Below are positions 11,786 to 18,555 of a stretch of 23,781 nucleotides of DNA, one piece after another. The notes beneath the pieces were generated by a model. It was not told the DNA's origin. It searched no databases and saw nothing but the letters and a program-made list of their open reading frames with translations. A program made the position numbers and the translations under genes. The number at the start of each line of letters is the position of its first letter. The stretch's first letter is position 1. The stretch spans positions 1-23,781 of IMG/VR virus record IMGVR_UViG_3300025282_000245; one strand, 5' to 3'. The stretch is from a virus.

Positions 11786-12092
11786 TGAAGAGCTATCTAA
11801 GGGAGAAAAAGTAGGAGAGTTATCTTTCCAAGTTGTCAATTTTATTGACATGATGCAAACTCTAGAGATTGTTCAGCATAGTGATAAATGGTATGAAACC
11901 AATCCTATTCTAGGCAAACATCCGCAACAACACGAAGTTATAACGTATTTTATGATACGCGGCGCTACGCATTATCATATAACAAAATGGCTACCTAAAA
12001 AATTTAGACCTGTGTGGCTGACCGTAACGTTTTTACCGCAAATACCCATTATTGAACACAATCATAATTTAGGAATTAGAATAGGATGGTAA
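11733..12092 (+). CDS. Small exported/membrane phage protein, 119 aa
   Basis: The N terminus (MKKLLLLILILSSSTAISEE) is a textbook signal peptide or anchor. The mature part contains FIDMMQTLEIVQHSDKWYET, then NPILGKHPQQHEVITYFMIR, a basic WLPKKFRPVWL segment, a hydrophobic VTFLPQIPIIE and a final HNHNLGIRIGW. The pattern D..QT......yETNPiLGkHP is seen in small membrane proteins of phages and bacteria (I think DUF5658-related, low certainty). The start lies 53 nt inside the preceding gene in another frame, so the signal peptide is encoded on top of that gene's C-terminal tail. Its Shine-Dalgarno is only purine-rich. It overlaps the next gene by 7 nt. Confidence 0.6.
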   Translation: MKKLLLLILILSSSTAISEELSKGEKVGELSFQVVNFIDMMQTLEIVQHSDKWYETNPILGKHPQQHEVITYFMIRGATHYHITKWLPKKFRPVWLTVTFLPQIPIIEHNHNLGIRIGW

Positions 12093-13852
12093 AATATTTA
12101 ATACCTTTATTACTTAGCTTTAACTTGTACGCTGTAGAAGTCACAACCGACAATCTTTTAAACAACTCGACGTTCGGAACAGGGACCACGTATTCTGATA
12201 CGGGGTGGACTATTACTGGATATGATAGTTCTCATAATTACACAAGCTCTGCTGGTGGTAATGATCCCGGCGGCGCAATGGCCTCGGGACAAGACACAAG
12301 CATAACACAAACAGTAGATTCTTTGGCTAGTGCAGCGGAGATGACGGTACCGGAAATACAAAAAGGCTGGTCGTCGACCATGTCAACGGACATATGGTAC
12401 TGGAATCAATATAATAATACCACAACACTCAAGCAAACAATTACGGATAGCGCCGGCAATGTTACCATACAGCAACGTGTCATTAGTGATACAGGATGTG
12501 GAAGCATTAACTGCGGGCAGTACACTAACTACACGGACAAGCATATACAAGGGGCCAACACAAATACCGATTTTAGCATTGGTGTTAATGTCAGTAACAG
12601 CAATAGTCGAAGCGGGCATTACGGCCCCGACATTGATGATATACAATTAAAAGTTACCTACACCGACGTTCCTCCGATTGATACCAGCACACAAGAAATA
12701 ATTGATGACATTGAAGAGGACATAGAATTTGAAGAGGAGTTTACATGGGAAGAAGATATTGCGTTGGAGGAAAATTTTTACTTTGAAGAAGAAGTAGCAT
12801 GGGAAGAAGATTTTTACTTTGAAGAAGAATTTGATATGGAAGAATATATGACAATGGACTTTGAAGACCAATGGGTAGACATGGAGTTTGAAGATGAATT
12901 TGTTGAAATGGAAGAGATGGAGTTTGAAAATGAGTTCGTTGAAATGGAGTTTGAAGAAATGAATACAGCAATGAATTCTTTCGATGATATGTATATGGAG
13001 GAATTGGAAGAGTTTGAAGAGTTTGAAGATGCATGGGGAATGGAACCAGAGATGACGGAGATGGATACGTTCTTTACGGAAATGTCCGATGAGGAATGGG
13101 AAGAGTTTGAAGAAATGTCCGAAGATGAATTTACGGAATTTCTGGAAGAAGAGTTTCCGGAAGAATTTGTAGAAATGCAGGAGGAAATGGAAGAATCTAA
13201 TACGGTAATGGAAGAGGAAATGCCAATGGAAGAGCCGGAAATGGACGAGGAAATGGAAGTTGCTTCTAGTGAAGAAGATGATATGATGACTGACGAGCCA
13301 GAGCCGGAAATGGACGAACCAGAAAACGAGGAGGTTCAAAATGAAGAAGATACTAAATCTACTGAGGAGCCTAAAGAAAATGTGGAAGAAGAGTCAGAAA
13401 ACGAAGACAGCCCATCAGAGGTTGCTGCGGATGAAGAAAAGGAATCCGATAGCGAAGCTGTTGCGGATGCCGAAGTTCAAGCAGATGGTGATTCCAAGCA
13501 GGAAACTATACAAAAGGCAGAAGTCAAAGGAAATAGAAAGATCAGTATAGATCAAATTAAGGTCAATAAGGTCAACGTGGAACGGGTAACACTGTTCTCG
13601 GACCAAGGATCTTTAGACGTCTATGAAACGGTCGCTTTTTACCAGCCGGAGCAAATCTACACCGACGTAGATACGTCTTTCTTTGACCAAATAGATATGG
13701 TAGAGTATAACAAACAAATTTACCAGAATGTAAGTCTGGCGTCCTACACGGACAATGATCCGGTGGAAGTCCACCGCAAAAACATGGAACGTATTAACAT
13801 GGAAAAACAACGATTATTAATTGAACTACGACAACTGAAAGGCCAACAATGA
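12086..13852 (+). CDS. Secreted hyper-acidic phage protein, 588 aa
   Basis: Three parts are visible after a signal peptide (MVKYLIPLLLSFNLYA, cleavage before VEV). Part one (about 17-195) is beta-rich and Asn/Thr/Ser-rich, like a carbohydrate-binding or adhesin jelly-roll: NLLNNSTFGTGTTYSDTGWT, with a Cys pair at 138 and 143. Part two (about 205-462) is dominated by Glu and Asp, with regularly spaced Phe, Met and Trp: units such as FEEEF, WEED, MEFEDEFVEM. Part three (about 484-588) returns to normal composition and starts RKISIDQIKVNKVNVERVTL, ending in a charged helix. Proteins with this layout occur in marine phage genomes, function unknown. The acidic tract could bind cations, mimic DNA or keep the protein extended; all are inference. 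It overlaps both neighbours (ATGA at the 3' end). Confidence 0.65.
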   Translation: MVKYLIPLLLSFNLYAVEVTTDNLLNNSTFGTGTTYSDTGWTITGYDSSHNYTSSAGGNDPGGAMASGQDTSITQTVDSLASAAEMTVPEIQKGWSSTMSTDIWYWNQYNNTTTLKQTITDSAGNVTIQQRVISDTGCGSINCGQYTNYTDKHIQGANTNTDFSIGVNVSNSNSRSGHYGPDIDDIQLKVTYTDVPPIDTSTQEIIDDIEEDIEFEEEFTWEEDIALEENFYFEEEVAWEEDFYFEEEFDMEEYMTMDFEDQWVDMEFEDEFVEMEEMEFENEFVEMEFEEMNTAMNSFDDMYMEELEEFEEFEDAWGMEPEMTEMDTFFTEMSDEEWEEFEEMSEDEFTEFLEEEFPEEFVEMQEEMEESNTVMEEEMPMEEPEMDEEMEVASSEEDDMMTDEPEPEMDEPENEEVQNEEDTKSTEEPKENVEEESENEDSPSEVAADEEKESDSEAVADAEVQADGDSKQETIQKAEVKGNRKISIDQIKVNKVNVERVTLFSDQGSLDVYETVAFYQPEQIYTDVDTSFFDQIDMVEYNKQIYQNVSLASYTDNDPVEVHRKNMERINMEKQRLLIELRQLKGQQ

Positions 13853-16660: not shown

Positions 16661-17056
16661 TTAGCCCTTTTTGATGTCAATTGTGCGTGGTTTTTCCGAT
16701 TCTGGAATTTCACGGTGGTATTTTATACTTAACATGCCATCTTTTAGTTTTGCACCGTCAACAATGATCTGTTTATGAAGCTGAAAGCTTTTGGTAAAGC
16801 TTCGGTTCGAGATTCCTTTGTGAAAAAATTCTTCTGAATCTTTATCCTCTTTGCATCCATGCACACTTAAAGTGTTTTCTTTTACTTCGACCTTTAAGTC
16901 CTTTTCAGCAAATCCCGCAACAGCGAATTCAATGACACCTAAGTCATCTTTTTCTTTTATATTGTAGGGTGGATAAGTTGATACTCTTCTGAAGTTATCA
17001 AAAAAGTCATTGTGAAAACCAAGAAAATGGTTACGTATAATATCTAGCTCGTTCAT
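16661..17056 (-). CDS. Small heat-shock protein, Hsp20/alpha-crystallin family (IbpA-like), 131 aa
   Basis: The alpha-crystallin domain spans about residues 30-125: YPPYNIKEKDDLGVIEFAVA, then GFAEKDLKVEV, LSVHGCKE, GISNRSFTKSFQLHKQI, DGAKLKDGMLSIKYHREIPE. It closes with KPRTIDIKKG, which provides the C-terminal IxI anchor used in oligomer formation. YPPYNI, AVAGF, GI..R.F...FQL and GML.I...R.IPE are diagnostic of IbpA-type small heat-shock proteins: ATP-independent holdases binding unfolding proteins. The N-terminal arm is short (about 28 residues). Hsp20 genes are known in marine T4-like phages, where a virion-assembly role has been proposed. The start is preceded by AGGAGG (17062-17067), which lies within a predicted hairpin. 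It is co-oriented with the helicase upstream, 62 nt away. Confidence 0.95.
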   Translation of the reverse strand: MNELDIIRNHFLGFHNDFFDNFRRVSTYPPYNIKEKDDLGVIEFAVAGFAEKDLKVEVKENTLSVHGCKEDKDSEEFFHKGISNRSFTKSFQLHKQIIVDGAKLKDGMLSIKYHREIPESEKPRTIDIKKG

Positions 17057-17058
17057 AT

Positions 17059-17082
17059 TAACCTCCTATTAAAGCAAGATTA
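17059..17082 (-). promoter_or_regulatory. ROSE-like RNA thermometer hairpin over the hsp20 ribosome binding site
   Basis: On the leftward strand, UAAUCUUGCU (17082-17073) can pair with AGGAGGUUA (17067-17059) across the loop UUAAU. This gives nine pairs (two of them G-U) with one bulged G at 17075. The whole Shine-Dalgarno AGGAGG is enclosed and the start codon lies 2 nt beyond. UUGCU facing AGGA with a bulged G is the signature of ROSE-type thermosensors, which control hsp20/ibpA genes in bacteria. Pairing was worked out by hand; no energy calculation was possible. Confidence 0.5.
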
Positions 17083-17083
17083 C

Positions 17084-17104
17084 ATGGACCCTTATGGCGT
17101 CCAT
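17084..17104 (-). promoter_or_regulatory. Upstream hairpin in the hsp20 leader
   Basis: Arms ATGGAC and GTCCAT are perfect inverted repeats separated by nine bases. In the leftward RNA two further C-G pairs form inside after one bulged G, leaving an AUAA tetraloop. The element lies just downstream of a predicted -10 box and immediately before the thermometer-like hairpin. It could stabilise or insulate the leader, act as a DNA operator around the transcription start, or terminate helicase readthrough weakly (there is no T-run). Confidence 0.45.
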
Positions 17105-17110
17105 AGATTA

Positions 17111-17139
17111 TATATAAACTATATTAACCACTTTTTCAA
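17111..17139 (-). promoter_or_regulatory. Putative sigma70-type promoter for hsp20
   Basis: On the leftward strand, TTGAAA (17139-17134, one mismatch to TTGACA) is followed after 17 nt by TATATA (17116-17111). A perfect TATAAT overlaps slightly downstream (17112-17107). The -35 box lies inside the 3' end of the helicase gene. The predicted start near 17100-17104 would place both leader hairpins in the transcript. The area is AT-rich, so chance matches are possible. Confidence 0.4.
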
Positions 17140-18555
17140 GTCTTCTCCTAAAACTTTTGTTGCTAAATTAATCTTTCCTCGTAAATTCTTGACAATGTAC
17201 TCATCTATCGTCCCCTCTGATATAAGATCAATATAGGTTACTTTCTTTGTTTGGCTGATACGGTGTGCCCGGTCTTCTGATTGCAGTCTAATTTCTAAAT
17301 CGTAACTATTGCTGTAATATACAACAGTATGACTAGCAGTGAGAGTGAGACCATACCCCCCGGTTTTAGGATTGCCAACGAAAAATCGTAGATTGCTTTC
17401 TCGATCTTGGAAGCGGCTAACAATATCTTGGCGGTCGCGATCAAGAGTATCGCCAAAGAAAGATTCCACGGCGTCCGCTCCATATCGTTCCGAAAGAATT
17501 TTTGTAATTTCTTTAATGTCATGACGGTATACCGCCCAAATAATAACTTTTCCATCGACCTCCTCCAGTATGTTTAATAGTTCTGTTATTCTATTATTTT
17601 TTAACGGTCGCACTTCGCCGTCGTCCGTTGCTAAATGACCGCATGTAATTTGATGCAGTCTAATTAATTGTGCCAGCGCACTAGCCGCCGTTGTTTGTGA
17701 ACCCCGCAATTCTGTCAAAGCATGTTTCTTCATTTCGGTGTATGCTTTTAGTTGTTCGGGTGTTAAAGATATAGTACGTTTCATATAAACTTTATCCGGT
17801 AAATCTAAACAATCTTCTTTCAATACGCGGTACGAAAACTTTTCTAGCTTAGAATTGAGTTCATCTAGTCGTATGTATCCTGTAACTAATTTAAAACTGT
17901 GACTGCCTACATTACGATCAATCATCATTGCGTAACGATTTTTAAACGTGTAGTACGAAGAAAAATCCAAGTAATACGGATCTAAAAAATAGCACTGTGT
18001 ATATAAATCTAATGGACTTTTTGTCACTGGTGAGCCTGTCAGTATTCGTCTATACTTCGCATAATCTCGTAGTTTCAAAACGTTTTTGGTTCTTGACGCT
18101 GTGGGTGATTTTATGGTTGTTGATTCGTCAATCGCCATTAATGCAGAATGTGAGAGTAGAAATTTTTCAGCTATTTTTAGCCCTTTTTTCGTACTAAAGG
18201 CTTCTATATTCATTAAGAATATAACTAATTCTTCTTCGTGTTTAAATAATTTTCTATTTTCCGTATCCTGTTTTTTTGTTTGAGAGGGCGACCATGTCAC
18301 TACATTATACAAAACATGTTCTGGCATGTGTATAGGTATTTCTTGTCTTTCCCAGTTACGATAGACACCTTTGGGTGCGATAATTAACGCCGCATTAATT
18401 TTACCTTTATCATAAAGCATGGCAATATTATCAACCAATACTTTGGATTTACCTGTACCCATTTCCATAAATAGAGCATAGTTTTCTTTGTTATGACTTG
18501 CTCCCAACGCATGTAACTGATGCTCGTATGGCTCTGTTTTAAATTTATAATCCAT
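17119..18555 (-). CDS. SNF2-type superfamily 2 helicase, 478 aa
   Basis: Helicase motifs in order: a Q-like YEHQLHAL (10-17); Walker A MEMGTGKS (30-37); motif Ia LIIAPKGVYRNW (58-69); motif II DEST (143-146, in place of the usual DEAH); motif III LTGSP (172-176); then in the second RecA domain VIIWAVYRHDIKEI, GGYGLTLTASHTVVYYSNSY and motif VI QSEDRAHRISQ (425-435). The QSEDRAHRxxQ signature marks the SNF2/Rad54 branch: ATP-driven translocases on duplex DNA. This is a minimal core without accessory domains, as in several phage SNF2 proteins. It may assist replication initiation, recombination or removal of bound proteins. Its ATG follows AAGGAC by about 9 nt and is read from the divergent promoter region toward hsp20. 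Confidence 0.9.
   Translation of the reverse strand: MDYKFKTEPYEHQLHALGASHNKENYALFMEMGTGKSKVLVDNIAMLYDKGKINAALIIAPKGVYRNWERQEIPIHMPEHVLYNVVTWSPSQTKKQDTENRKLFKHEEELVIFLMNIEAFSTKKGLKIAEKFLLSHSALMAIDESTTIKSPTASRTKNVLKLRDYAKYRRILTGSPVTKSPLDLYTQCYFLDPYYLDFSSYYTFKNRYAMMIDRNVGSHSFKLVTGYIRLDELNSKLEKFSYRVLKEDCLDLPDKVYMKRTISLTPEQLKAYTEMKKHALTELRGSQTTAASALAQLIRLHQITCGHLATDDGEVRPLKNNRITELLNILEEVDGKVIIWAVYRHDIKEITKILSERYGADAVESFFGDTLDRDRQDIVSRFQDRESNLRFFVGNPKTGGYGLTLTASHTVVYYSNSYDLEIRLQSEDRAHRISQTKKVTYIDLISEGTIDEYIVKNLRGKINLATKVLGEDLKKWLI

Follow-up and report, generated by a model that had tools for sequence, protein, structure and literature searches.

A ROSE-like two-hairpin leader upstream of a phage hsp20 gene is probably an RNA thermometer

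Among described ROSE thermometers, those of Pseudomonas ibpA (Rfam ROSE_3, RF02523) offer the closest comparison for the leader analysed here. Pseudomonas ibpA leaders contain two hairpins; the motif U(U/C)GCU lies opposite the Shine-Dalgarno (S-D) sequence, and heat melts hairpin II but leaves hairpin I closed (Krajewski et al. 2013, PMC3669281). Hairpin II alone is enough for thermosensing, the P. aeruginosa element melts without protein in vitro, and stabilisation of the mRNA has been suggested as a role of hairpin I (PMC3669281). The hairpin becomes tighter with dG39, U38C or both, and the two together lock P. putida ibpA off (PMC3669281). A 2014 review described ROSE as always associated with small heat-shock genes (PMC4166951); the ABC-transporter cases came later. 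For phages, the RNA thermometers named in the literature are those of lambda cIII, SP-beta blyA and one Caudoviricetes sigma-70 leader (PMC4166951, PMC10586365, PMC11182007), the blyA element being only the second in a phage genome according to a 2024 paper that adds one more (PMC11182007).

We analysed a 23,781-nt stretch of marine phage DNA (IMG/VR record IMGVR_UViG_3300025282_000245; hereafter, the window) in which, reading leftward, a gene for an SNF2-type helicase (17119-18555) is followed by hsp20 (Table 1). An earlier note, made from the sequence alone, had proposed a ROSE-type thermometer at this position, in which a nine-pair hairpin with one bulged G buries the whole AGGAGG and sets UUGCU against AGGA. 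That hairpin is seen both in the sequence and in the predicted fold: hairpin II has nine pairs, with the wobble pair U17076-G17065 beside the bulged G17075, and every base of the S-D is paired within it. Folded alone, it has a predicted free energy of -3.0 kcal/mol at 37 °C and -6.8 kcal/mol at 15 °C. Directly upstream lies hairpin I, which was absent from the earlier note and helps leader stability. These two hairpins, and no others, make up the predicted fold of the 50-nt leader (17106-17057), whose energy of -14.9 kcal/mol (z -2.7) was reached by 3 of 200 dinucleotide shuffles.

Table 1 Features of the hsp20 locus in the window
Feature	Position	Strand	Basis
hsp20 gene, 131 aa	16661..17056	-	Pfam HSP20 3.3e-17; PHROG 432 Hsp20 8.5e-33
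Codons 2-7, able to pair with the anti-SD arm (competing fold)	17036..17053	-	predicted fold
hsp20 leader RNA, short two-hairpin ROSE-like element	17056..17105	-	covariance-model match and fold z -2.7
Hairpin II, UAAUCUU-(G17075)-CU-UUAAU-AGGAGGUUA, buries the Shine-Dalgarno	17059..17082	-	fold, clade conservation, outer-pair covariation
Shine-Dalgarno AGGAGG	17062..17067	-	sequence
UUGCU, ROSE anti-SD motif	17073..17077	-	sequence
Hairpin I, UAUGGAC-(G17098)-CC-AUAA-GG-GUCCAUG, bulged G	17083..17105	-	fold and covariation
Possible sigma-70-like promoter TTGAAA-N17-TATATA	17111..17139	-	read by eye; inference

A scan of the window for consensus sigma-70 promoters and terminators found neither a minus-strand promoter nor a terminator near hsp20. 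Given that many relatives in the window's clade carry TTGACT/TTGATT...TATAAT at the same place as the possible promoter, ending just before hairpin I, we infer that the transcript probably starts near hairpin I. After hsp20, an inverted repeat, AAACAGG...CCTGTTTTC, with a 27-nt loop (16622-16582, minus strand) is possibly a terminator. Elsewhere in the window, Glu and Met are highly enriched over a long segment of the 588-aa protein encoded at positions 12086-13852 (plus strand).

Like Pseudomonas ibpA, the locus has two hairpins within about 50-65 nt, a free AUG and a small heat-shock gene; in both, hairpin I is of the type GGAU-(G)-CC...GG-GUC and hairpin II sets CUU-(G)-CU against AGGAG. 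In an alignment of the two leaders, G39 and U38 of ibpA correspond to G17075 and U17076, and the ibpA mechanism is therefore transferable to this leader, by analogy only. The window element differs from ibpA in its phage genome, its shorter linker, its AU-rich and less stable hairpin II and its sub-cut-off Rfam score; in other phages, the element is also found on dnaK and groES. Enterobacterial ibpA (ROSE_2, RF01832) likewise has a U(U/C)GCU hairpin over the S-D, and Salmonella ibpA has predicted upstream hairpins with a bulged G, but more hairpins are predicted for ROSE_2 than for the window element. In one Salmonella ibpA locus (L519, 1010-1095), both predicted upstream hairpins carry a single bulged G, which may thus be common to ROSE side hairpins in general. 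ROSE-G (PMC12857270) also has a bulged G opposite the S-D in its S-D hairpin, but its motif is CUGCU, its bulge is a double G and its genes are those of ABC transporters; the text of that paper does not mention phage. The lambda cIII, SP-beta blyA and Caudoviricetes sigma-70 thermometers share the phage setting, but are described as other types on other genes, and the cIII thermometer acts in the reverse sense. Synechocystis hsp17 (PMC4166951, PMC4477652) is an hsp20-class gene under an RNA thermometer, but that thermometer is a single hairpin without the two-hairpin ROSE layout.

In the Rfam search that the earlier note had suggested, the leads were ROSE families, but all fell below the cut-offs. 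A scan of the window at the gathering thresholds found no match. ROSE_2 scored 14.8 bits (E 0.63) against a cut-off of 65; ROSE_3, with a cut-off of 43 bits, did not match the window at gathering, nor at E <= 10 in 111 nt; and ROSE (RF00435) did not match the window, its cut-off not being reached. None of the phage leaders scored reached the Rfam ROSE cut-offs, the best relative scoring 34.1 bits against ROSE_3; sub-cut-off matches to ROSE_3 included Melnitz (E 1.6e-6) and a phage groES leader (E 1e-5). The architecture of the leader does, however, fit the literature definition of ROSE. The motif UUGCU is imperfectly paired with the S-D; a bulged G is accompanied by a non-canonical pair, as is conserved in the family; the number of hairpins falls within the expected two to four, with the S-D in the 3′-most; and the downstream gene encodes a small heat-shock protein. 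At low temperature, the S-D is predicted to be hidden in the fold of the leader alone but not in the fold with coding sequence. Because the architecture meets the literature definition but the Rfam cut-offs are missed, we call the leader ROSE-like, by structure and by probable mechanism, and not a member of RF00435, RF01832 or RF02523. An apparent P. aeruginosa ibpA leader, scoring 69.2 bits with ROSE_3 and E 5.8e-5 with the phage-derived model R1 described below, is present in OQ572409.1 (L506), an UNVERIFIED record named 'Pseudomonas phage Y7'; this is probably host DNA.

Relatives of Hsp20 were collected from viral contigs picked by protein similarity, and some of the 39 distinct leaders of the window's clade were found by DNA pattern. 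The earlier note had held that unpaired substitutions in homologous arms would refute the thermometer. Instead, the seven inner pairs of hairpin II are kept in 39/39 clade leaders, four of which change U-G to U-A with pairing kept. The eighth pair is present in 22/39 and the ninth in 5/39, such that the nine pairs proposed earlier do form in the window but the conserved hairpin has seven.

A wider set comprised 151 distinct leaders from protein-selected hsp20 loci (cyanophages, pelagiphages, Melnitz and others); loci found with two DNA patterns had been selected for the element and were excluded from frequency estimates. A simple motif descriptor found hairpin II in 145/151 of these leaders and a bulged-G hairpin I in 141/151, compared with 11 and 2, respectively, of 1100 other gene starts on the same contigs, and with 9/151 and 1/151 when upstream sequences were shuffled with the S-D kept. 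Two apparent misses, L180 (CCAC-G-CUU...AAGGUGG) and L171 (AGAC-G-CU...AG-GUCU), have an altered S-D but, by eye, are still paired; one leader (L042) has only hairpin I, and neither hairpin was found in the leader of Vibrio phage PWH3a-P1 (L177). MAFFT misplaced the 3′ arms of the diverse leaders, and a same-geometry seed was therefore used. A covariance model, R1, built from nine leaders all outside the window's clade, had a sole significant match in the window, at 17104-17061 on the minus strand (22.1 bits, E 3.4e-5), which places the window leader in this phage family of two-hairpin leaders. Among 100 sources chosen by Hsp20 protein similarity alone, R1 matched before hsp20 in 96.

In an alignment of 90 distinct phage leaders, 98.7% of cells were paired, compared with 82.4 in shuffles, and 164 cells carried double changes, compared with 41.5 (0/500 shuffles as high); sliding the partner by 1-3 columns destroyed the signal. 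Note that structure-fitted alignments lean towards that structure, which is why the slide and shuffle controls matter. Covariation was found in six of the seven modelled pairs of hairpin I. For hairpin II the support is thinner, since its core is nearly invariant, although its outer two pairs covary across 54 representatives (54/54 vs 50.3 expected; 32/54 vs 23.9). Beside the bulged G of hairpin II, the wider family has U-G 55 times and C-G 32 times. With the arms preserved, the leader energy below that of shuffles and the sub-cut-off Rfam leads, the ROSE-type reading of the leader is supported; the temperature response itself is inferred.

The element precedes hsp20, dnaK and groES in phages. 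Eight genomes of isolate phages (141-229 kb) each have a single R1 match at E <= 0.001, immediately upstream of hsp20; under the stricter filters used, five further isolate records had no R1 match. Of 121 sites that match the hairpin-II sequence alone (CTTGCTTANNNNAAGGAG), 85 precede hsp20 and about 15 precede dnaK; chance matches are among the remainder. One 107-kb phage contig (L120/G001, IMGVR 3300044613_003659) has three copies, before groES-groEL, dnaK and hsp20, and several other phages carry it once on dnaK and once on hsp20. The same contig (L120 7524-11556, and G001) encodes GroES, GroEL, DnaK and Hsp20. At three loci (L055 10544-10768, L265 1317-1562 and L229 757-1014), a family of proteins of 73-85 aa without a Pfam match is encoded just downstream of the element; in L055 and L265 this small ORF lies between the element and hsp20, with hsp20 immediately after, and in L229 there is no adjacent hsp20. 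An element-like hairpin II also precedes a gene for a 93-aa protein of unknown kind (MTITILQQDEITKMK...) in L208 (3627-3665, minus strand), where no bulged-G hairpin I is visible upstream.

A pattern search of bacterial genomes recovered near-identical leaders before hsp20 in marine OCS116, SAR86, PS1 and an alphaproteobacterium. Ordinary-looking metabolic genes flank the OCS116, SAR86 and alphaproteobacterial copies, which we therefore take to be chromosomal. R1 matched 11, mostly small, of 289 genomes in the class of G013, which is recorded as an alphaproteobacterium; several of these matches precede hsp20 and one precedes dnaK. With ROSE_3, one sub-cut-off match was obtained among 274 genomes from the class to which the SAR86 genome belongs. 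A contig of the single-cell archaeal assembly SCG-AAA382B04 (L497, PZKD01000051.1) carries an hsp20 of the window clade with its leader; this reflects a virus carried along or contamination, and the archaeon is not necessarily a host.

We computed the exposure of the S-D across temperature. For the leader alone, mean predicted exposure of hsp20 leaders rose from 0.18-0.19 at 20 °C to 0.29-0.31 at 45 °C, compared with 0.48 and 0.56 for 150 control genes. The window leader opened gradually, from 0.08 at 20 °C to 0.29 at 55 °C. The same computation for the tested P. aeruginosa ibpA gave 0.03 and 0.26 over this range, with 0.04 at 25 °C and 0.12 at 42 °C. The computation thus understates the tested element, and predicts no sharp switch for either leader; given their similar exposures, the window leader lies, by computation, within the range of a real ROSE element.

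We consider it likely that the window leader is a phage-borne short ROSE-like RNA thermometer, with the temperature response inferred, there being no temperature experiment on any phage copy. The transcript would start, as inferred above, close to hairpin I, which would form a stable 5′ hairpin. Hairpin II would then fold and, as computed, hide the S-D at ordinary growth temperature. The bulged G beside the U-G wobble would keep the stem weak, such that warming opens it and lets a ribosome start on hsp20, a step inferred from the tested Pseudomonas ibpA of the same layout. Hsp20 output would rise with temperature at translation without a protein regulator, and phage dnaK and groES genes would use the same device.

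The main unresolved point for the window phage is a competitor within the coding region. With codons 2-6 added to the sequence, the predicted minimum-energy structure has AUCUUGCUU paired to GAGCUAGAU, leaving the S-D free. On the comparison with shuffles that the earlier note had named as a possible refutation, the 50-nt leader is more stable, but the 81-nt stretch that includes coding sequence is no better (z -1.2). With 30 nt of coding sequence added, leaders of the window clade have a predicted S-D exposure of 0.5-0.66, such that the element looks open at moderate temperature. The anti-SD arm might thus trade between the S-D and codons 2-6 in a bistable switch specific to this clade, leaving the S-D open by default or opening it once the coding region is transcribed. 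The competing pairing wins the longer fold and reaches about -7 to -8 kcal/mol in most of the 39 clade members; however, the MNELEL members reach only about -4.2 kcal/mol. Beyond this clade, the value for complementarity to the start of the coding region (-3.41) barely exceeds that of permuted coding sequence (-3.10, sd 0.14) and equals that of shuffled sequence (-3.27, sd 0.22), and a general codon-pairing switch is unsupported there. We regard the bistable switch as rather unlikely.

It is also unlikely, if slightly more so, that the leader acts independently of temperature, with hairpin I protecting the mRNA 5′ end and hairpin II imposing a fixed lowering of translation. Hairpin I is the more variable but remains paired, is probably at the 5′ end and has the suggested stabilising role in ibpA, and the predicted opening of hairpin II is shallow. 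A fixed attenuator, however, needs neither the bulged G and adjacent U-G or C-G pair kept in hairpin II nor the same bulge in hairpin I, and the target genes are chaperones. A dimeric protein could well bind two like-shaped hairpins that each keep a bulged G, and regA adjoins hsp20 in several T4-like cyanophages; repression by a phage or host protein that binds bulged-G hairpins, such as RegA of T4-like phages, can thus be envisaged. Yet the element is also present in unrelated phages and in bacterial chromosomes, and it matches P. aeruginosa ibpA, which needs no protein to melt in vitro; we find a protein operator very improbable. Finally, AGGAGG has many possible partners and hairpin II alone is weak at 37 °C, as might be expected of chance complementarity to an ordinary S-D. 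We reject this origin with near certainty: it is contradicted by the descriptor counts (145/151 vs 11/1100), the R1 matches, the conserved clade pairs and covariation far above shuffles.

The earlier note knew of no described ROSE case in such a phage, and our text searches, limited to open-licence papers, likewise found no report of one; compared with these sources, what is new is that the element is in phages and that it also precedes dnaK and groES. Few RNA thermometers have been described in phages; here one element recurs across many phage lineages and extends the ROSE type to dnaK and groES. Named members of these lineages infect Pelagibacter, Prochlorococcus, Synechococcus, Methylophilales, Sinorhizobium and Agrobacterium, and T4-like cyanophages are described as having hsp20 among their core genes (PMC9004378). 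Judging from sequence, these phages probably tie chaperone production to temperature. We lean, by a little, towards a broader proposal: that many marine phages run hsp20, dnaK and groES-groEL under one shared thermometer design, copied before each gene and common to them and marine bacteria, and that the chaperones made by the virus thereby track sea temperature with no protein regulator, in cyanobacterial hosts also. If the element works, temperature would set the supply of chaperones during infection at the level of translation, providing a direct, testable link between sea warming and viral replication.
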